A stretch of 35,268 nt of DNA from Candidatus Goldiibacteriota bacterium (GTDB lineage: Bacteria; Oederibacteriota; JAAXVQ01): positions 1 through 35,268 of the forward strand of contig JAGVPM010000155.1 of NCBI GenBank assembly GCA_020052235.1, written 5' to 3'. The translations under genes were made by a program, and so were the position numbers. Of the stretch, positions 3,884 to 34,204 are shown piece by piece (the stretch's first letter is position 1; every line of letters begins with the position of its first letter). The notes below the pieces were generated by a model. The model did not search any database, was not told where the DNA came from, and saw only the letters and a program-made list of their open reading frames with translations.

Positions 3884-5821
3884 ATGGGTTTAAACTTAAA
3901 CCGGTTTGTGGAAGATCCGCACGCCACGGGCGTTCTTTTAAAATTTACATCTTTGTCCAAATCACCGCAGCCGGGTTGGTTGTTTTCGCAGCCGGAGCGT
4001 GAGTGCGTCTGCCAAACTCCGGAAGACATTAAACCGTTCTTTAAACATATTGAAGCCGCCCTGCGGGCAGGGAAATATTTAGCCGGATATATGACCTACG
4101 AATTCGGCGTGGCCTTGGCCGGATTGCCCATGAAGCAAACACCGCCTCATCCTAGAACAGAGGCGGGGGCTTGGGGGCGAAGCACCCCAACAAAGATAGG
4201 AAGGAACAGCGGACGGTACGTCCGCGTCAGGGAAACCTGTGGTTTCCCTGAAAGTTCCGCTGGCCCCTTGGCCTGGTTCGGCGTTTTTTCGCGCCCGCTC
4301 CGGGTTCCCTGGAAAGTAAAATTACCGCAGGCATTTCCCGGGCCCGCGTATTGGCTGCGTCCCTGCCTGCCGGTCATCCCCTATTCCGCCTATCAAAAAT
4401 CGTTCCAACACATAAAGCAAAAAATTTCAGCCGGTGAAACGTATCAGGTTAATTACACCTTCCCCCTGCAGACCCGCTTGGACGGAGATGAAGTGTCTTT
4501 GTTCTACGATCTTTTTGCGCAACAACCGGCAAAATACACAGCCTGGGTGCGGGGCGGCGGCCGGACAGTGATGTCGTTTTCACCCGAGCTTTTTTTCTCT
4601 TGCCAAGACGGCCAGGTTATAACCCGCCCCATGAAAGGCACCTTGGCACGCCTGCAACCAGGACCGACCCACGCCAACTCGAAAGCCGCGTTGCGGAATT
4701 CGGAGAAAGACCGGGCGGAAAATATTATGATCGTCGATTTGCTGCGCAATGACCTGGGACGTTTATGCCGCACCGGGTCAGTGAAAACGTCCCGCTTATT
4801 TCAGGTGGAGTCCTTGCCGACGGTATATCAAATGACGTCCACAGTGGAAGGCCGGTTAGCGCCCGGCCTGGGCTGGGAAACTTTTTTTCGCAGTTTGTTT
4901 CCTTGCGGCTCCGTGACCGGCGCGCCTAAAATTCAAACCATGAAAATTATTAATCAAACAGAGAAAATGCCGCGGGGCGTGTATACAGGAGCCATCGGCT
5001 ATTTGGCGCCGAATGGCCGGGCCATGTTTAATTTGCCCATCCGCACCTTGGAATTGGATGCGCAGAGCCATCGGGCGCGTATGGGGGTTGGCAGCGGGGT
5101 GGTGGCGGATTCACAAGCGCAGGCCGAATGGGACGAGTGCTTGCTTAAGGGGACGTTTTTAACCCAGTCTGGAATTACCGCTGAGTACCAATTATTGGAA
5201 ACCATTTTATGGGAGCCGGAAAACGGGTTCAGGCATTTGGATTTGCACTTGGCGCGAATAGTCCAATCGGCCCAATATTTTGGGATTGCATGTTTAAAAC
5301 CCAAGCTGCTTGCTGCACTCTGGCAACATCTGGCCCAGCAGCCGGAAGCTTCTGCCCGCCGGATACGTTTATTGCTCACAACCAATGGAAGTACTCAGGT
5401 TGAAAGCACAGTCTGGAAACCAATCGCAACCGGGTCTGTGTTGCCGGTTGTGGCGTGGGCTAAACAACGCACGCATTCGCGGAATATTTTTCTTTACCAT
5501 AAAACTACTAATCGCGTTGGCTACGATCAGGCCTGGGCCCAAGCGCATGCGCGCGGATTAATGGATGTGCTGTTTTGCAATGAACGTAAAGCCGTGACCG
5601 AGGGTGCGATTACCAATGTGGTTATCCGTCGAGGCAAGGTGTTACTCACACCGCCAGTGAAAGACGGCCTGCTTCCCGGTGTGGAGCGCGCGTTTTTGCT
5701 GAAGCAAGGGAACCCCAAGATAGTTGAACGCAGTTTATACCGGCGTGATGTGCTGGCCGCAGATGAGATATTTTTAGCCAATTCCGTGCGGGGATTGTTT
5801 CCAGTGAGATTGGAATATTAA
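3884..5821 (+). CDS. pabB: Aminodeoxychorismate synthase component I fused to 4-amino-4-deoxychorismate lyase (PabB-PabC); carries an in-frame repeat insertion
   Basis: Chorismate-binding motifs (GETYQVNYTFPL, SFSPELFF, TRPMKGT, DLLRNDLGR, GSVTGAPKIQTM) plus a C-terminal class IV aminotransferase-like lyase (ETILWEPENGFRHLDLHLARI...VTEGAITNVVI...). Start placed at ATG 3884 because the ORF start at 3854 lies in the rplL terminator. Confidence 0.9.
   Translation: MGLNLNRFVEDPHATGVLLKFTSLSKSPQPGWLFSQPERECVCQTPEDIKPFFKHIEAALRAGKYLAGYMTYEFGVALAGLPMKQTPPHPRTEAGAWGRSTPTKIGRNSGRYVRVRETCGFPESSAGPLAWFGVFSRPLRVPWKVKLPQAFPGPAYWLRPCLPVIPYSAYQKSFQHIKQKISAGETYQVNYTFPLQTRLDGDEVSLFYDLFAQQPAKYTAWVRGGGRTVMSFSPELFFSCQDGQVITRPMKGTLARLQPGPTHANSKAALRNSEKDRAENIMIVDLLRNDLGRLCRTGSVKTSRLFQVESLPTVYQMTSTVEGRLAPGLGWETFFRSLFPCGSVTGAPKIQTMKIINQTEKMPRGVYTGAIGYLAPNGRAMFNLPIRTLELDAQSHRARMGVGSGVVADSQAQAEWDECLLKGTFLTQSGITAEYQLLETILWEPENGFRHLDLHLARIVQSAQYFGIACLKPKLLAALWQHLAQQPEASARRIRLLLTTNGSTQVESTVWKPIATGSVLPVVAWAKQRTHSRNIFLYHKTTNRVGYDQAWAQAHARGLMDVLFCNERKAVTEGAITNVVIRRGKVLLTPPVKDGLLPGVERAFLLKQGNPKIVERSLYRRDVLAADEIFLANSVRGLFPVRLEY
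4144..4258 (+). repeat. Structured palindromic element family 1, copy A (in frame inside pabB)
   Basis: GCCTCATCCTAGAACAGAGGCGGGGGCTTGGGGGCGAAGCACCCCAACAAAGATAGGAAGGAACAGCGGACGGTACGTCCGCGTCAGGGAAACCTGTGGTTTCCCTGAAAGTTCC; near-identical to 6962-7076 and 32699-32812. Confidence 0.95.
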
Positions 5822-6961: not shown

Positions 6962-7076
6962 GCCTCATCCTAGAACAGAGGCGGGGGTTTGGGGGCGAAG
7001 CACCCCAACAAAGATAGGAAGGAACAGCGGACGGTACGTCCGCGTCAGGGAAACCTGTGGTTTCCCTGAAAGCTCC
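6962..7076 (+). repeat. Structured palindromic element family 1, copy B (at the 5' end of rsgA-like gene)
   Basis: About 97% identical by eye to copy A; same four hairpins. Confidence 0.95.
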
Positions 7077-8040
7077 GCCAGATGGTGCGGGTCTCCTGGC
7101 AGCCGTAGTTACTGGGAAATCAATGCACGAGTCTGAAAATTATTCTGAGTTTCCGGTAGTAGGGGATTGGGTTTTGGCCAAACCGCCTGTCGGGGGCACG
7201 GCGGTTATTGTACGCCGCCTGGAACGCCGCTCGGAACTTTCACGCCGCCGGCCCATAGATCGAAACTCACTTCGGACTTCTACGGAACGTCAGGTTCTGG
7301 CCAGCAACTTGGACTATGTGTTTATTGTCATGAGCCTAAATCAGGATCTGAATTCTTCCCGCTTGGAACGGCTGCTAACTATTGTGTGGAACAGCGGCGC
7401 AACGCCGGTGGTGTTATTGAGCAAAGCGGATCTATGCCCTGACACGGACGCCAAAACCAATGAAATACAAACCTTAGCCAGCGGAGCCAATGTGCATGGC
7501 TTTAGCAGTTTGCAAGGACAAGGCATGCAAGCGATCCGGAATTATTTTAAGCCCGGAGTTACGGCTTGTTTGATCGGGTCATCCGGTACGGGTAAAACCA
7601 CACTGCTGAATGTTTTGTGCGGAACCCAGTATAAAACATTAACCATCCGGGAGGATGATGATAAAGGCCGCCATGCCACCACAGCGCGCGCTTTATTCTT
7701 CCTGCCTGAGGGCGGAATGATTATCGACACCCCGGGTATGCGTGAAATCGGCCTGATGGATGATAGCGATCTTACGGCTGCTTTTACGGATATTGTTGAA
7801 TTGGCTGGAAAATGCAAGTTTGCTGATTGTACTCACCGGGTTGAGCCGGATTGCGCAGTTTTGTCTGCTTTGGCTGAAGGCGGATTACAGCAGGAACATT
7901 ACACCAACTATCTGAAGTTGTGCCGGGAGTTGGAATTTCAAGCGAGTAAATCTTCAATAACTAAACAGCAAGAAACCAAAAAGAAACAAAAACAATTGGG
8001 GAAACTGATCAAGGATTATTACAAAATTAAACCCAAGTAA
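7057..8040 (+). CDS. rsgA: RsgA-like circularly permuted GTPase (YjeQ family), apparently N-terminally truncated
   Basis: ASNLDYVFIVMSLNQDLN...NSGATPVVLLSKADLC...GSSGTGKTTLLN...DTPGMREIG...CKFADCTHRVEPDC. The ORF starts (GTG) inside repeat copy B, and an in-frame TAG at 7015 blocks upstream extension. Confidence 0.85.
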   Translation: MVSLKAPPDGAGLLAAVVTGKSMHESENYSEFPVVGDWVLAKPPVGGTAVIVRRLERRSELSRRRPIDRNSLRTSTERQVLASNLDYVFIVMSLNQDLNSSRLERLLTIVWNSGATPVVLLSKADLCPDTDAKTNEIQTLASGANVHGFSSLQGQGMQAIRNYFKPGVTACLIGSSGTGKTTLLNVLCGTQYKTLTIREDDDKGRHATTARALFFLPEGGMIIDTPGMREIGLMDDSDLTAAFTDIVELAGKCKFADCTHRVEPDCAVLSALAEGGLQQEHYTNYLKLCRELEFQASKSSITKQQETKKKQKQLGKLIKDYYKIKPK

Positions 8041-12328: not shown

Positions 12329-12371
12329 CTTGGTCCCCTTCGGCTTTCAATTCTTGGATCACTATGGTCTT

Positions 12372-12421
12372 ACCGCAGAGACGCGGAGTTCGCAGAGAAA
12401 GTCACTCCGCGCCTCTGCGGT
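12372..12421. repeat. CCGCAGAG-type palindromic repeat, copy 1
   Basis: ACCGCAGAGaCGCGGAG / CTCCGCGcCTCTGCGGT; related copy at 34084-34179. Confidence 0.8.
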
Positions 12422-24510: not shown

Positions 24511-25596
24511 GTGCTTTATTATTTTCTGTTTCCTTTGGCCGATGCCTGGAAAGCGTTAAATGTTTTCCGGTACATAACGTTCCGTTCGATTTACGCGGCG
24601 ATTACTGCATTTTTGATTTGTTTGCTGCTGGGGCCCTGGATTATACGCACCTTGAAAAAGGGCGGGGTGGAGCAGGCCATCCGCCAGGATGGCCCCGGGG
24701 CGCATTTGAAAAAAGCCGGTACGCCTACCATGGGCGGGTTGATCATTTTACCGGCGATTTTCATCAGCGTTGGTTTGTGGGCCCGCTGGGAACAGTTTGC
24801 GGTATGGGTCACCATGGCTTCAATGCTTTGGTTCGGCGCCGTGGGTTTTTGGGATGACTTTATTAAATTTTCGGGAAAAAATCCCAAGGGCATGAGTTCG
24901 CGCCTCAAGCTGGCCTTGCAGGCAGTGGGCGGCGTGGCAATCATGGCCGCCGTGATGTTTCGGGGCGAAGGCGGGGCGCTGGCCATGTCGATCAATGTCC
25001 CGTTTTTCAAGTCCGCTCTGCACCTGCCCGTCTGGCTTTACTTCGTCCTGGGGTGGACGGTCATTGTTGGGGCGTGCAACGGAGTAAATTTCACCGACGG
25101 GTTGGATGGATTGGCCAGCGGGGCCTTGGCCCTGGTAGGGGTGACGTTTGCGATCATGAGTTACCTGGTCGCGCATGCCAAGTTTGCGAATTATCTCCTG
25201 GTTATTCACGTGCCAGGAGGCGGTGAGCTGACGGTTATTTGCAGCGCCATGGTGGGCGCCGTACTGGGGTTTCTTTGGTTCAATTCTCACCCGGCGGAAA
25301 TTTTTATGGGGGACACGGGATCATTGGCCTTGGGCGGAATGCTGGGCACGATTGCAGTGCTGATCAAACAGGAACTCCTGCTGTTTGTGGTGGGTGGTGT
25401 GTTTGTGGCCGAGACGCTGTCGGTTATTCTTCAAGTCGGCAGCTACAAACTGACCGGCAAGCGGATTTTCAAGATGGCGCCCCTGCACCATCATTTTGAG
25501 CTTTCCGGGTGGTCGGAAACCAAGGTGATTATCCGCTTTTGGATTGTGGCCATTTTGTTGGCCATTATCACCTTGAGTACATTGAAGTTAAGGTAG
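24511..25596 (+). CDS. mraY: Phospho-N-acetylmuramoyl-pentapeptide-transferase
   Basis: AGTPTMGGLIIL, NFTDGLDGLASG, HPAEIFMGDTGSLALGG, APLHHHFELSGWSETKVIIRFWI. Confidence 0.97.
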   Translation: MLYYFLFPLADAWKALNVFRYITFRSIYAAITAFLICLLLGPWIIRTLKKGGVEQAIRQDGPGAHLKKAGTPTMGGLIILPAIFISVGLWARWEQFAVWVTMASMLWFGAVGFWDDFIKFSGKNPKGMSSRLKLALQAVGGVAIMAAVMFRGEGGALAMSINVPFFKSALHLPVWLYFVLGWTVIVGACNGVNFTDGLDGLASGALALVGVTFAIMSYLVAHAKFANYLLVIHVPGGGELTVICSAMVGAVLGFLWFNSHPAEIFMGDTGSLALGGMLGTIAVLIKQELLLFVVGGVFVAETLSVILQVGSYKLTGKRIFKMAPLHHHFELSGWSETKVIIRFWIVAILLAIITLSTLKLR

Positions 25597-25620
25597 GGAA
25601 CGGTTTAAAACCGTTCCCCA
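25594..25620. repeat. Small palindrome TAGGGAACGGTTTAAAACCGTTCCCCA, copy 3
   Basis: Same motif as 123-149; its first three bases are the mraY TAG stop codon. Confidence 0.85.
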
Positions 25621-25637
25621 GAAGTTTGAGGTGGATT

Positions 25638-28132: not shown

Positions 28133-29244
28133 TGGAATCCGCGCAGGTATTCGTGGTTTCCGGCGGCGGGACCGGCGGGCATATTTTTCCGGCTTTGGCC
28201 GTGGCCAATGAATTGCGGCAACAAGCGCCCGGGGCGCGCGTGTTTTATTTGGGCAAGTCTGATGGTATGGAAAAAGAACTGGCGGAACGGGCGGGCTTGC
28301 CGTTTTTCGGCATTCCGGCTTCAGGGTTTGAACGCCGCCTGTCATTTAAAAATGCCGCGGCTATTTGGCAAGCTTTGTGCGGACTTGGCAGGGCGCGCCG
28401 CTGGTTGAAACAAAATCACGCTTGCGCGGTATTGGGAACCGGAGGGTTTATTTGCGGCCCGATTATTTTGGCGGCCCGTACCTTGGGCATTCCCACCATT
28501 ATTCATGAAAGCAATGTTGTCCCGGGACTGACCAACCGCTGGTTGGGACGCATTGCAACGCGCGTGGCAGTAGGACAACGGGAAAGCTTAACCCAGTTTC
28601 CGGCCAATAAAACCGTGGTCACGGGATTTCCCTTGCGGCCGGGGTTAAATGGTCCGGCCCGCGCCGCAGCCTGCGCTGTGTTCGGACTGGATCCCGCGCG
28701 GCGGGTGTTGTTCATTTTTCCAGGCAGTTTGGCGGCCCGGAGCATCAACCGGGCCGTGGCGGAAATGCTTCCGCATTGGGCGCGCCGTTTGCCGGAATGG
28801 CAGGTGCTGTGGATGACGGGCAAAGCGGATTTTGAATTCGCCCAGCGCGTGCAGAAACAATTGGGGCTGCCCGTAGTTATCCGGGAGTTTGTGTATGAAG
28901 TGCCGGAAGCGTATGCGGCCGCGGACATTGTCTTGGCCCGGGCCGGGGCCGGAACCTTGGCGGAATTATCGGCTGTGGGGAAACCTTCATTGTTGGTGCC
29001 GTATCCGTATGCCACCGGAAATCATCAGATGTTTAACGCGCAGTTGCTGGCGCGGGCCGGGGCCGCGGAAATTATAACCGACGACCGGATCAATGGGGAT
29101 GTGCTCTTGGAGACTCTGAAGAACATGATCGCGCGTTACGACGCTATGCGTCAAGCGGCGGAAGTCGTCCAAAGCGCGTATCCGAAACAGGCGGCGAAAG
29201 AAATAACGCGCATGCTGCTGGATATGGCGCAAAAAAACGGATGA
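28132..29244 (+). CDS. murG: UDP-GlcNAc--MurNAc-(pentapeptide) pyrophosphoryl-undecaprenol GlcNAc transferase
   Basis: SGGGTGGHIFPALAVANEL, GTGGFICGPIILAARTLGIPTIIHESNVVPGLTNRWL, RAGAGTLAELSAVGKPSLLVPYP. Confidence 0.96.
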   Translation: MESAQVFVVSGGGTGGHIFPALAVANELRQQAPGARVFYLGKSDGMEKELAERAGLPFFGIPASGFERRLSFKNAAAIWQALCGLGRARRWLKQNHACAVLGTGGFICGPIILAARTLGIPTIIHESNVVPGLTNRWLGRIATRVAVGQRESLTQFPANKTVVTGFPLRPGLNGPARAAACAVFGLDPARRVLFIFPGSLAARSINRAVAEMLPHWARRLPEWQVLWMTGKADFEFAQRVQKQLGLPVVIREFVYEVPEAYAAADIVLARAGAGTLAELSAVGKPSLLVPYPYATGNHQMFNAQLLARAGAAEIITDDRINGDVLLETLKNMIARYDAMRQAAEVVQSAYPKQAAKEITRMLLDMAQKNG

Positions 29245-29258
29245 ATGTATAAAAAATT

Positions 29259-29375
29259 AATTCCCCTCCCCAGGATTTGGTGGGAGGGGCTAGGGGAGGG
29301 GGCGTAAAGAGTATGCGGAAAAAGCTCATCACCCTCCCCCCGGCCCCCTCCCATCCGAGCAGGGAGGGGAATAAG
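29259..29375. repeat. CCCCTCCCC-type about 115-bp repeat, copy 1 (murG-murC intergenic)
   Basis: AATTCCCCTCCCCAGGATTTGGTGGGAGGGGCTAGGGGAGGGGGC...CATCACCCTCCCCC...CCCCTCCCATCCGAGCAGGGAGGGGAATAAG; paralogue at 30813-30930. Confidence 0.9.
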
Positions 29376-29393: not shown

Positions 29394-30806
29394 ATGAAAA
29401 AAAATAAGCAAAGCATTCACTTCATAGGCATTGGCGGCTCGGGCATGAGCGGGATCGCCGAAGTGCTTTTGAATTTGGGATACAAAGTCACGGGTTCGGA
29501 TTTGAAAGCATCGGAGGTAACGCGCCGGTTGCAGCGCATGGGTGCCAAAGTATTTTCCGGGCACTTGGCGGAGAATTTACCCGAAGCCACGGATGTGGTG
29601 GTGGTTTCCAACGCGGTTCCGGACACCAATCCGGAGATCGTGGCTGCGCGTGAACGGGACATTCCCGTTATTCCCCGGGCGCAGATGTTGAATGATTTGA
29701 TGCGTTTAAAACAGGGCGTGGCCATTGCCGGAACCCACGGCAAAACCACCACCACCTCGATGCTGGCGTGGATTCTGGCGCAGGCTGGCATGGACCCAAC
29801 CATGGTGATCGGCGGGATTTTAAACAACATCAACCAGGGCGCGCGCATGGGCAAGGGTGATTATTTTGTAGTGGAAGCGTGCGAGGCGTACTCATCATTT
29901 CTGCACCTGACACCGGCCGTGGTGGCGGTAACGAATATTGACGACGATCATTTGGAAAATTACGGTTCGCGCGGTGCCTTGGAAGATGCGTTTGTCCAAT
30001 TCATCAACCGGGTTCCGTTTTGGGGTTTCGCGGTTTTAAATGCGGACGATCCGGGCATCCGTCAAGTGATGCCGCGGGTGGTGCCGCGCGTGATTACCGT
30101 GGGATTTGAAGTTGGAGCTGATTTGCGCGCCACCGCGCCGCTGGCGGATCAGTTAAGGCAGAGCGTGATGGTGACGCGCCGGGGCAAGTCCCTGGGCCGC
30201 CTGCAATTGCGTTTGCCCGGGAAATTTAATGTGTTGAACGCCCTGGCGGCCGCGGCCGTGGCTTTGGAATTGGGCGTTTCGTTTGAGAAAATCCAAAAAG
30301 CATTGGCCGGGTTCACGGGGGTGCGCCGCCGGTTTGAATACAAAGGCACGTACCGCGGGGCGACGGTCGTGGATGATTACGGGCATCATCCCACGGAAGT
30401 GGCTACCACGCTGACTGCCGCCCGCGGGTTGAATCCGCCGCGCGTGGTGGTGCTTTTTCAGCCGCATTTGTTTTCGCGCACGCAGCGGTTGTATAAAGAA
30501 TTTGCGCGCGCTCTCATGTTGGCTGATGAAATTTATGTGGCGGATATCTATCCGGCGCGGGAACGCGCGGTGCCGGGTGTGACGTCGCAATTGATCGTGG
30601 ATCAGCTGAACCTGGAAGGCCATGCCGCTGCCGGCGGCCCGCTGCCCTTGGATGCCTTGCTGGCCAAATTGAAAAAGGAACTCAAAGCCGGCGATCTGTT
30701 CATTACCATGGGCGCCGGGGATGTGTGGAAGCTGGGGGAACAATTGGCGGGCATCAAGGCAAAACCGAAAACCGCGGCAACCAAGAAAAAACGGAAGAAA
30801 GTATGA
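29394..30806 (+). CDS. murC: UDP-N-acetylmuramate--L-alanine ligase
   Basis: IHFIGIGGSGMSGIAEVLLNLGYKVTGSDL, AGTHGKTTTTSMLAW, NIDDDHLENYGS, VVDDYGHHPTEVATTL; start moved to ATG 29394, out of the repeat. Confidence 0.96.
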   Translation: MKKNKQSIHFIGIGGSGMSGIAEVLLNLGYKVTGSDLKASEVTRRLQRMGAKVFSGHLAENLPEATDVVVVSNAVPDTNPEIVAARERDIPVIPRAQMLNDLMRLKQGVAIAGTHGKTTTTSMLAWILAQAGMDPTMVIGGILNNINQGARMGKGDYFVVEACEAYSSFLHLTPAVVAVTNIDDDHLENYGSRGALEDAFVQFINRVPFWGFAVLNADDPGIRQVMPRVVPRVITVGFEVGADLRATAPLADQLRQSVMVTRRGKSLGRLQLRLPGKFNVLNALAAAAVALELGVSFEKIQKALAGFTGVRRRFEYKGTYRGATVVDDYGHHPTEVATTLTAARGLNPPRVVVLFQPHLFSRTQRLYKEFARALMLADEIYVADIYPARERAVPGVTSQLIVDQLNLEGHAAAGGPLPLDALLAKLKKELKAGDLFITMGAGDVWKLGEQLAGIKAKPKTAATKKKRKKV

Positions 30807-30812
30807 AAAAAT

Positions 30813-30930
30813 AATTCCCCTCCCCAGGTTGTGGTGGGAGGGGCCAGGGGAGGGGGCTTTAAGTGCTTGTAGAAAAAGTTCATCACCCTCCCCCTCACCC
30901 CCTCCCATCAAGTAGGGAGGGGAATATAAG
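30813..30930. repeat. CCCCTCCCC-type about 115-bp repeat, copy 2 (murC-ddl intergenic)
   Basis: AATTCCCCTCCCCAGGTTGTGGTGGGAGGGGCCAGGGGAGGGGGC...CATCACCCTCCCCCTCACCCCCTCCCATCAAGTAGGGAGGGGAATATAAG. Confidence 0.9.
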
Positions 30931-31906: not shown

Positions 31907-32754
31907 AATTGAAACACCGCTTTACCTACGCAGGCACGGTGAGGACCGTGGGACGCCGGGTAAAAGCCCGGCGTGCGCCCGGCATGAAAATGCCTGCGGA
32001 TTGGAAAAGCCTGGCAGTGTCCGAGTCGCGCACGCATGGGCAGGCGCATTCACTGAACCTGCCCATGCGGATTTTAATTACCGCGGCGTTGGTGGGTATT
32101 TGCATTGCGGTGATCAGCAAGGAACCGGCATTGCATGATCAAATGGCCACTGCGTTGGGATCGGCGGGAGAAGAAATAAGCGGCTGGTTTGACAAGCCGT
32201 CGTCCGCAGCAACGCAGCCGGCTCCGGGAGAGAGAATCGGCACGGAAGCGAAACCCGTGGTGGTGGAAACCGGCCCGGCGGAGTTCAGGCCCGTGGCCTT
32301 GGTATCCGACGGGGGAATTTTCGCTTTGGGCGACCGCGGGGAAGTGAAAACCTGCGGTCCCGAATGCACGGCCGAACGTTTTCCGGTGGTGACAGGGTTG
32401 AAGGTTCAGGAAGTTCCGGGCACCATGGGCGTCATGCTGAAAACCAATGCGGATATGAGCTTGATTCACGCGGTACTGCGCACTGCGTGGGTGGATCAGT
32501 TGTCGGAAATCAATTTGGGCGAATTGCCCGTGTTGGTGTTGTATACGCGCGATGCGGTCAAAATTAAATTGAACGCCGATTCGCAACTGGATCAGAATTT
32601 AAAACGGTTGGCCGCGGTGCTGAAGGATTTGCGGGGCCGCGGGCAGGATGCGTTTACCGTGGATGTGCGGTACAAAGATCAAATTGTGGTGAAACCACGC
32701 CTCATCCTAGAACAGAGGCGGGGGTTTGGGGGCGAAGCACCCCAACGAAGATAG
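31903..32754 (+). CDS. ftsQ: FtsQ-like cell division protein (recognisable FtsQ beta-like domain; no clear POTRA)
   Basis: Cytoplasmic N-terminus, single TM (MRILITAALVGICIAVI), C-terminal domain LNADSQLDQNLKRLAAVLKDLRGRGQDAFTVDVRYKDQIVVKP; between ddl and ftsA. Confidence 0.8.
   Translation: MKLKHRFTYAGTVRTVGRRVKARRAPGMKMPADWKSLAVSESRTHGQAHSLNLPMRILITAALVGICIAVISKEPALHDQMATALGSAGEEISGWFDKPSSAATQPAPGERIGTEAKPVVVETGPAEFRPVALVSDGGIFALGDRGEVKTCGPECTAERFPVVTGLKVQEVPGTMGVMLKTNADMSLIHAVLRTAWVDQLSEINLGELPVLVLYTRDAVKIKLNADSQLDQNLKRLAAVLKDLRGRGQDAFTVDVRYKDQIVVKPRLILEQRRGFGGEAPQRR
31929..31998. repeat. Cloverleaf-like palindromic element embedded in frame in the ftsQ N-terminus
   Basis: Outer CGCAGGCA/TGCCTGCG; hairpins CACGGT-GAGG-ACCGTG, ACGCCGGG-TAAAAG-CCCGGCGT, GGCAT-GAAA-ATGCC. 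Confidence 0.7.
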
Positions 32755-32812
32755 GAAGGAACAGCGGACGTAAGTCCGCGTCAGGGAAACCTGTGGTTTC
32801 CCTGAAAGTTCC
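32699..32812 (+). repeat. Structured palindromic element family 1, copy D (3' end of ftsQ)
   Basis: Near-identical to copies A and B; the stem-III loop changed from GGTAC to GTAA. Confidence 0.95.
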
Positions 32813-32832
32813 ACGCAGCTGGAGGTGAAGGC

Positions 32833-34083
32833 ATGCCGAAAGATATGTACGATAATCTGGTGGTGGGGCTCGATCTGGGCACAACGAAGATTTGTGCCGT
32901 GATTGCCGAGATTCAACCCACGGGAGTGGCGAACATCATCGGCGTGGGCATCAAACCCTCCAAGGGACTGCGCAAGGGCGTAGTCGTTAACATTGAAAAC
33001 ACCATCGAGTCGGTCAAAGCCGCCGTGGCCGAGGCCGAGCGCATGGCCGGGGTGCGGGTCGGGTCCGTGTTTGCCGGCATCGCCGGCGGACACATCAAAG
33101 GCTTGAACTCCCATGGCGTGATTGCCGTATCGCACAAGGATAAGGAAATCACCCGCGAGGACGTGGAGCGCGTTATCGAAGCGGCCAAGGCCATTGCTTT
33201 GCCGCTGGACCGCGAGATTATTCACGTCCTGCCGCAGGAATTCATCATCGACAATCAAGACGGAATCCGGGAACCCGTGGGCATGTCCGGCGTGCGCTTG
33301 GAAGCCGAGGTGCATATTGTCACCGGGGCGGTGACCAGTGTTCAGAATATTATCAAGAGCGTGGAACGCGCCGGATACGGCGTGGAGGATATCATCCTGC
33401 AACCTTTGGCCAGTTCCGAAGCGGTGCTTTCACCCGATGAAAAGGAACTCGGCGTGGTGCTGGCCGATATTGGCGGCGGGACCACGGATGTGGCGATTTT
33501 TGTGGAAGGGGCGCTGTGGCATTCGGGTGTCATTGCCATTGGCGGAAATCAATTAACCGCGGACATTGCCATTGGCTTGCGCACTCCGAATCAGGAAGCT
33601 GAGGAGATCAAACATAAATACGGCTGCGCTTCGGTGTCCATGGTGGCCGAAGGCGAGGAAATTCAGGTTCCCGGAGTAGGCGGGCGGGCGCCGCGGACCT
33701 TGCCCCGCCGCCAGCTGGCGGAAATCATCCAGCCGCGCATGGAAGAAATTTTTGAATTGATTGACGCGGAAATCAAGAAAAACGGATTTGAAGAAAAAGC
33801 CGCGGCCGGAGTGGTCCTGACCGGCGGTTCTTCGTTGTTGGCCGGAACGGCTCAGTTGGCGGAAGAAATTTTACAAGTGCCGGTGCGCATTGGCGTGCCT
33901 AAAAATGTGGTGGGCATGGTGGATATCGTGAATTCCCCCAGTTATTCCACGGCCGTGGGGTTGGTGTGCTTTGGCGCCAAAAGCCGCACGCCGGGGTCCA
34001 CCGCGCGGTCGCGCGGGGGCCAGGGGAAAAAGATGGGTTCATTGATGCAACGCATGAAGACGTGGTTTACGGAATATTTTTAA
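32833..34083 (+). CDS. ftsA: Cell division protein FtsA
   Basis: NLVVGLDLGTTKICAVIAE, HVLPQEFIIDNQDGIREPVGMSGVRLE, LADIGGGTTDVAIF, GVVLTGGSSLLAG. Confidence 0.97.
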   Translation: MPKDMYDNLVVGLDLGTTKICAVIAEIQPTGVANIIGVGIKPSKGLRKGVVVNIENTIESVKAAVAEAERMAGVRVGSVFAGIAGGHIKGLNSHGVIAVSHKDKEITREDVERVIEAAKAIALPLDREIIHVLPQEFIIDNQDGIREPVGMSGVRLEAEVHIVTGAVTSVQNIIKSVERAGYGVEDIILQPLASSEAVLSPDEKELGVVLADIGGGTTDVAIFVEGALWHSGVIAIGGNQLTADIAIGLRTPNQEAEEIKHKYGCASVSMVAEGEEIQVPGVGGRAPRTLPRRQLAEIIQPRMEEIFELIDAEIKKNGFEEKAAAGVVLTGGSSLLAGTAQLAEEILQVPVRIGVPKNVVGMVDIVNSPSYSTAVGLVCFGAKSRTPGSTARSRGGQGKKMGSLMQRMKTWFTEYF

Positions 34084-34179
34084 AAAGCCTCACCGCAGAG
34101 GCGCAGAGTTCGCGGAGTATTCCATTAAATATTTTCCGGGCATTTCTCTGCGTTCTCTGCGTCTCTGCGGTGAGGCTTT
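34084..34179. repeat. CCGCAGAG-type palindromic repeat, copy 2 (ftsA-ftsZ intergenic)
   Basis: AAAGCCTCACCGCAGAGgCGCAGAG / CTCTGCGtCTCTGCGGTGAGGCTTT, 25-nt arms with one mismatch. Confidence 0.9.
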
Positions 34180-34204
34180 AAAAAAGATTGCGGAGGTGAA
34201 TTTC

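Follow-up and report, generated by a model that had tools for sequence, protein, structure and literature searches.

A hairpin-rich repeat inserted in frame, and probably translated, in a pabB gene of a Goldiibacteriota bacterium

Palindromic repeats inside genes and the present element

Rickettsia and Wolbachia are the best-known hosts of palindromic repeats that sit in frame within genes. Other hairpin repeats, the GTAG REPs and REPINs, are moved by RAYT transposases. Rickettsia palindromic elements (RPE-1 and others) are described as units of 105–146 bp that occupy intergenic sites and also, in frame, conserved genes (Ogata et al. 2000, 2002, as cited in PMC2229807 and PMC3733652). According to the passages on RPEs in PMC2229807 and PMC3733652, one peptide recurs across unrelated proteins and the hosts are presumed functional; the corresponding passages on REPs place these repeats, like the rickettsial elements, inside ORFs, and do so for many species. 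The CGTC-tagged REPs, which include rickettsial RPE-4 and RPE-6, measure 20–40 nt and have an 8–9 bp stem starting AT, a 4–5 nt loop and a CCA tail (PMC3733652).

The element described here was found in a 35,268-nt stretch of DNA from an uncultured Goldiibacteriota bacterium, hereafter the window. The window's genome is called G000; G001 is a sister species, and G004 and G006 represent two other genera of the order. Like RPEs, the element is short (117 nt) and occupies both intergenic sites and, in frame, conserved protein genes; in-frame insertion, an RPE trait, is seen in PabB, a PMT_2 protein, an exported protein and a Y1 transposase. Also as with RPEs, one peptide is shared by unrelated proteins, and the hosts are presumed functional. 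An analogy with RPEs had been drawn in the initial annotation, and in behavior it holds. In anatomy it does not: RPEs consist of one long stem-loop with terminal inverted repeats, whereas this element folds into four distinct hairpins and lacks a terminal inverted repeat, and RPE hosts belong to a different bacterial group (Rickettsia).

With CGTC-tagged REPs the element shares CGTC at the foot of hairpin H4, an occasional intragenic location and, apparently, the lack of a dedicated transposase. In almost every copy the AGGG stem of H4 is preceded by CGTC, L127 being an exception. However, the published tag is unpaired, while here the last two CGTC bases pair in the predicted fold, and the unit is 117 nt with an H4 stem (AGGGAAACC) starting AG, a 3-nt loop (TGT) and the tail GAA. 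Resemblance to GTAG REPs and REPINs lies in the hairpins, the intergenic preference, the Y1 genes in the genomes and the stop codons supplied to flanking ORFs, but GTAG is absent from the hairpin foot (that of H1 is CNNN) and, unlike in the GTAG REP/RAYT system, copies were not found flanking Y1 genes except for two in G006. MITEs with reading frames (ERIC, the Correia 107-bp element, YPAL; PMC2229807) are similar in having a length of 100–200 bp, folded transcripts and occasional in-frame fusions; unlike this element, for which neither was seen, they have terminal inverted repeats and, as a rule, target duplications. It behaves like RPEs and intragenic REPs and fully fits the definition of no family, and a limited literature search found no published description of it.

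The insert in pabB

The gene that carries the insert (Table 1) belongs to folate synthesis and encodes aminodeoxychorismate synthase component I together with an aminotransferase class IV/lyase domain, as judged from Pfam matches to Chorismate_bind (E = 4e-83) and Aminotran_4 (E = 1.8e-40). Its closest named PabB counterparts, at ~36–39%, come from Omnitrophota. An in-frame insertion of a palindromic element had been proposed at 4129–4270, adding about 40 residues; our analysis bears this out, with the boundaries refined to 4144–4260 and the insert to 39 residues.

Table 1. Coordinates of the pabB gene, the parts of its element copy, and further copies in the window
Feature	Position	Strand	Basis
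pabB-pabC type gene with in-frame interruption	3884..5821	+	Pfam PF00425, PF01063; 47–52% identical orthologues in same order
Mobile hairpin element in pabB, 117 nt, exactly 39 codons, peptide PHPRTEAGAWGRSTPTKIGRNSGRYVRVRETCGFPESSA	4144..4260	+	repeat matches; empty in 59 homologues
Conserved C four bases before H1, insertion signature	4140..4140	+	C at −4 in 48/56 copies, four genomes
Hairpin H1 (GCCTC...GAGGC); TAG in another frame ends several upstream ORFs	4144..4164	+	compensatory changes at 4/4 pairs
Hairpin H2 (TTGGGG..GCGAAGC..CCCCAA)	4171..4190	+	98.5% of cells paired
Unpaired conserved purine-rich linker CAAAGATAGGAAGGAACA	4191..4208	+	element alignment
Hairpin H3 (GCGGACG GTA CGTCCGC)	4209..4225	+	compensatory changes at 5/5 pairs
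Hairpin H4 (TCAGGGAAACC TGT GGTTTCCCTGA); first bases part of conserved CGTC	4227..4251	+	compensatory changes at 5/11 pairs
Element 3' end (AAGTTCCGC; consensus AAGCTCCGC)	4252..4260	+	flank comparison
Intergenic copy upstream of RsgA-type GTPase gene	6962..7080	+	
Older-type copy between two beta-ketoacyl synthase genes, supplying the upstream gene's stop codon	10980..11102	-	
Copy upstream of ftsA; same site holds an older-type copy in G001 (L163 748–874)	32699..32816	+	

The flanks had been said to be normally contiguous in PabB-type proteins, and an alignment with PabB homologues, the check that had been suggested, agrees: 32 of the insert columns are empty in 59 of 59 sequences. The distance from YE to PL(A/L)WFG is 17–22 residues in 57 of these homologues (the remaining two are partial or divergent in this region) and 56 in the window's protein, so that removal of the 39 insert codons (56 − 39 = 17) restores the usual spacing. 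A homologue with a related peptide of the same length but without the repeat had been named as the observation that would speak against insertion; no peptide comparable to the insert occurs among the 59 aligned homologues. Structural modeling, likewise suggested, gave a fold that matches the solved PabB structures of B. subtilis and E. coli (AlphaFold2, pTM 0.81, alignment of 60 sequences). In this model, residues 88–121 have pLDDT <50 and lie between a helix (72–78) and a strand (130–135), both modeled with high confidence. The insert is thus predicted to be a disordered loop within a confident fold.

Evidence for similar events comes from three other genes. A 913-aa membrane glycosyltransferase of G000 (PMT_2, PA14) has the insert in its N-terminal tail, a site that is empty in the G001 orthologue (L210). 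In a 313-aa exported protein of G000, the insert lies at codon 4, before the signal peptide; orthologues begin directly there, and the site is empty in L219–L221 and L223. A Y1 transposase of G006 contains a 40-residue insert (...IERN|...|PLKAG...) that is absent from 11 homologues, and here both the element sequence and the insert peptide differ from the others. Conservation therefore lies in the nucleic acid rather than in the peptide. Another copy (L203 2583–2703, G004) lies in a 998-aa ORF with PHP, Cache and DUF294 domains, where it may fuse two genes or be an in-frame insert; it was not accepted as a further case, as it lacks a full-length homologue that could show an empty site. Because every homologue has an empty site, the repeat family occurs at other places in the genome and three further genes show in-frame cases, we read the pabB interruption as an in-frame repeat insertion that is probably translated. 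PabB should therefore carry 39 extra, probably floppy, amino acids.

With its length of 39 codons and a frame without stops, this copy left pabB open. The initial annotation had remarked on the uninterrupted frame and on a TAG in another frame. Both are present, the TAG within H1, but the open frame calls for no selection, since one or more sense frames are free of stops in 74% of dinucleotide-shuffled versions of the element. Of the older-type copies in G000, most lack an open sense frame, and no intragenic copy was found among these. These observations led us to reject a selected reading frame; the open frame arises by chance and allows some insertions to survive.

Structure, distribution and placement of the family

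Although the element had been taken for one simple palindrome, alignment of copies from four genomes recovers four tandem hairpins, H1–H4, which RNAalifold returns as separate structures. Pairing holds in 98.2% of paired cells over 62 matches, double changes occur at 15 of the 28 hairpin pairs, and 0 of 500 shuffles reach this level of pairing and covariation; one caveat is that the alignment was fitted to the model, which biases the pair counts, but pairing in the sliding control drops to 38–63%. The compensatory changes support structure in single-stranded RNA or DNA, and some of them could come from template switching within palindromes. A known RNA family was rejected as an identity for the element: apart from a tRNA, nothing in the window matches Rfam at gathering threshold, and the one match around the element is at chance level (E = 0.71, far below its gathering score).

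Across 56 copies from four genomes, no other flank position is nearly as strong as the C at −4, which we regard as a target or cleavage signature. Terminal inverted repeats were not found, as the element's ends (GCCTC... and ...CTCCGC) are not inverted copies. Inspection by eye of the sequence around near-identical G001 copies and of the empty lpxB site showed no target-site duplication, and no pairing of NNN with the 3' flank was seen either.

In G000 there are 32 BLAST matches, most with E values of 3e-62 to 1e-13, a repetition far beyond chance. The covariance model R1 finds 31 copies in G000, 14 in G001, 9 in G006 and 7 in G004, these counts coming from a draft assembly in the case of the window's genome, with some copies at contig ends. 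The family is thereby present in 4 of the 45 genomes of the phylum that were searched; R1 found no copy in the other 41, nor in 14 genomes of other phyla. Near-identity is seen within G001 among eight intact copies and within G006 among most copies, which indicates that both have had amplification bursts of their own in recent times.

Four copies are in the window, starting at 4144, 6962, 10980 (minus strand) and 32699. Upstream of ftsA, two species carry different subtypes at the same site, which reflects either gene conversion or repeated insertion. The window also contains unrelated repeats. A second palindromic repeat (124 nt, 85% identical, CCCTCCCC/GGGGAGGGG arms) is found at 29232–29355 and 30786–30909, between consecutive co-directional genes; a third, with inverted arms (CTCTGCGTCTCTGCGGTGAG), lies at 34078–34185, just past the ftsA ORF, and at 12369–12400, near 12.4 kb; and a short palindrome (TAGGGAACGGTTTNAAACCGTTCCCTA) occurs twice (120–149 and 25594–25623).

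Most G000 copies lie between genes. Intergenic copies are mostly in the sense orientation, just past the end of the upstream ORF, whose stop codon they often provide. Upstream of lpxB, an insertion (L132 1291–1411) took the place of the final codons of the overlapping upstream gene, giving that gene element-encoded residues and a new stop. Most G000 copies with an assignable downstream gene end 10–20 nt before its start codon, and all 12 downstream G000 genes with Pfam assignments run in the element's direction. The same spacing is seen for three copies in G004 and four in G001 but not for those in G006. Orientation was taken from simple ORF calls, which makes its count outside G000 approximate; L194 (G006) may be an antisense copy.

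Such placement raises the question of whether the element is a functional cis-acting RNA upstream of ribosome-binding sites, with the pabB copy a stray insertion. Besides the spacing seen in many copies of G000, G001 and G004, this idea draws on its retention where room is ample (15–18 nt in L125, L126, L136 and L137), on near-identical G001 copies situated 17–18 nt from the start codon, and on the maintenance of the hairpins by compensatory changes. We nevertheless consider it unlikely. The downstream genes (ftsA, rsgA, lpxB, KDO transferase, SHMT, surE, dprA) have no common theme, for which reason a shared regulon was rejected; G006 copies are not near start codons; and template switching in palindromes can also yield compensatory change. 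Moreover, sites around lpxB and ahead of the SHMT gene are occupied in G000 and empty in G001 and other genera, which argues against an ancient regulon. A related idea, to which we give rather little weight, is that the family acts as a structured RNA module, itself mobile, and enters in the sense orientation directly upstream of ribosome-binding sites, its 3' end typically 13–20 nt before the start codon. Unrelated housekeeping genes would then come under one leader RNA, sense-only placement would reflect an RNA-linked insertion or selection step, and in-frame copies such as that in pabB would be by-products.

Fate of the pabB copy and mobilization of the family

By far the most probable reading, in our judgment, is that a non-autonomous, hairpin-rich mobile element has landed in a loop of PabB, and that the protein should then contain a disordered loop of 39 residues. 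The 117-nt element would have inserted cleanly, in sense, in a variable loop that links the YEFGVAL helix to the PLAWFGVF strand, its 39-codon length and stop-free frame keeping pabB open. The enzyme had been thought probably still made. Translation and tolerance of the insert by the enzyme are what we infer too, but the integrity of the gene is no proof of function, for the copy is young, so that the intact downstream domain says little about whether PabB is still used.

The opposite outcome is that the insert inactivates PabB, its hairpins stalling ribosomes or the loop spoiling folding, and that pabB is a pseudogene in the making. The pabB copy is up to 98% identical to other copies, too young for visible decay, and its RNA is predicted to fold stably (−64.9 kcal/mol, z −4.9), as this scenario would have it. 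Yet the insertion has kept length and frame, it sits in a loop whose length varies among homologues (17–22 residues), the residues invariant among PabB homologues are intact, and three other genes with comparable in-frame copies point to tolerance; inactivation strikes us as improbable. Splicing or bypass, intron-like or by the ribosome, would yield a protein without the 39 residues and could draw on the conserved four-hairpin structure, the strict sense orientation and the in-frame length, but is very improbable: the element matches no Rfam family, introns included, its 117 nt are far below the size of a self-splicing intron, it can be read in frame without removal, and most copies are intergenic, where removal would be pointless. 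Equally remote is an assembly artefact in which the repeat was wrongly joined into pabB, for although several copies at contig ends suggest that the repeat troubles the assembler, both flanks are halves of one PabB gene in frame, where a mis-join would pair different genes, and three other genes have the same pattern.

On the reading that we favor, the family spreads by copying within its order, presumably mobilized by an enzyme acting in trans. Surviving insertions are mostly intergenic; an intragenic one persists only when its length and reading frame allow it and it falls in a loop, in a tail or ahead of a signal peptide. Tentatively, the enzyme might be a single-strand (HUH/Y1 type) transposase. 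Two of the nine G006 copies touch Y1_Tnp (IS200-like) genes, one (L196, G006:C349) at the stop codon of a 340-aa gene and one (L201, G006:C199) in frame inside. Each of the eight genomes of the order that were searched has Y1 transposases, including those without the element, and R1 found no copy at 14 of 15 Y1 loci, the exception being the copy inside a Y1 gene (L244/L201). A dedicated Y1/RAYT transposase is thus not established, Y1 genes also being present where the element is absent, and a simple model of single-strand DNA transposition does not explain the strong sense-strand bias.

The family, for which we found no earlier description, comes from a poorly sampled phylum and has in-frame insertions in several proteins from two genera, where the peptides differ and nucleic-acid structure is conserved. 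This combination of differing peptides and conserved structure separates the mechanics of insertion from selection on the peptide. The family also offers young insertions with empty sites in a sister species, and its regular start-codon spacing and sense-only orientation make the mechanism testable.
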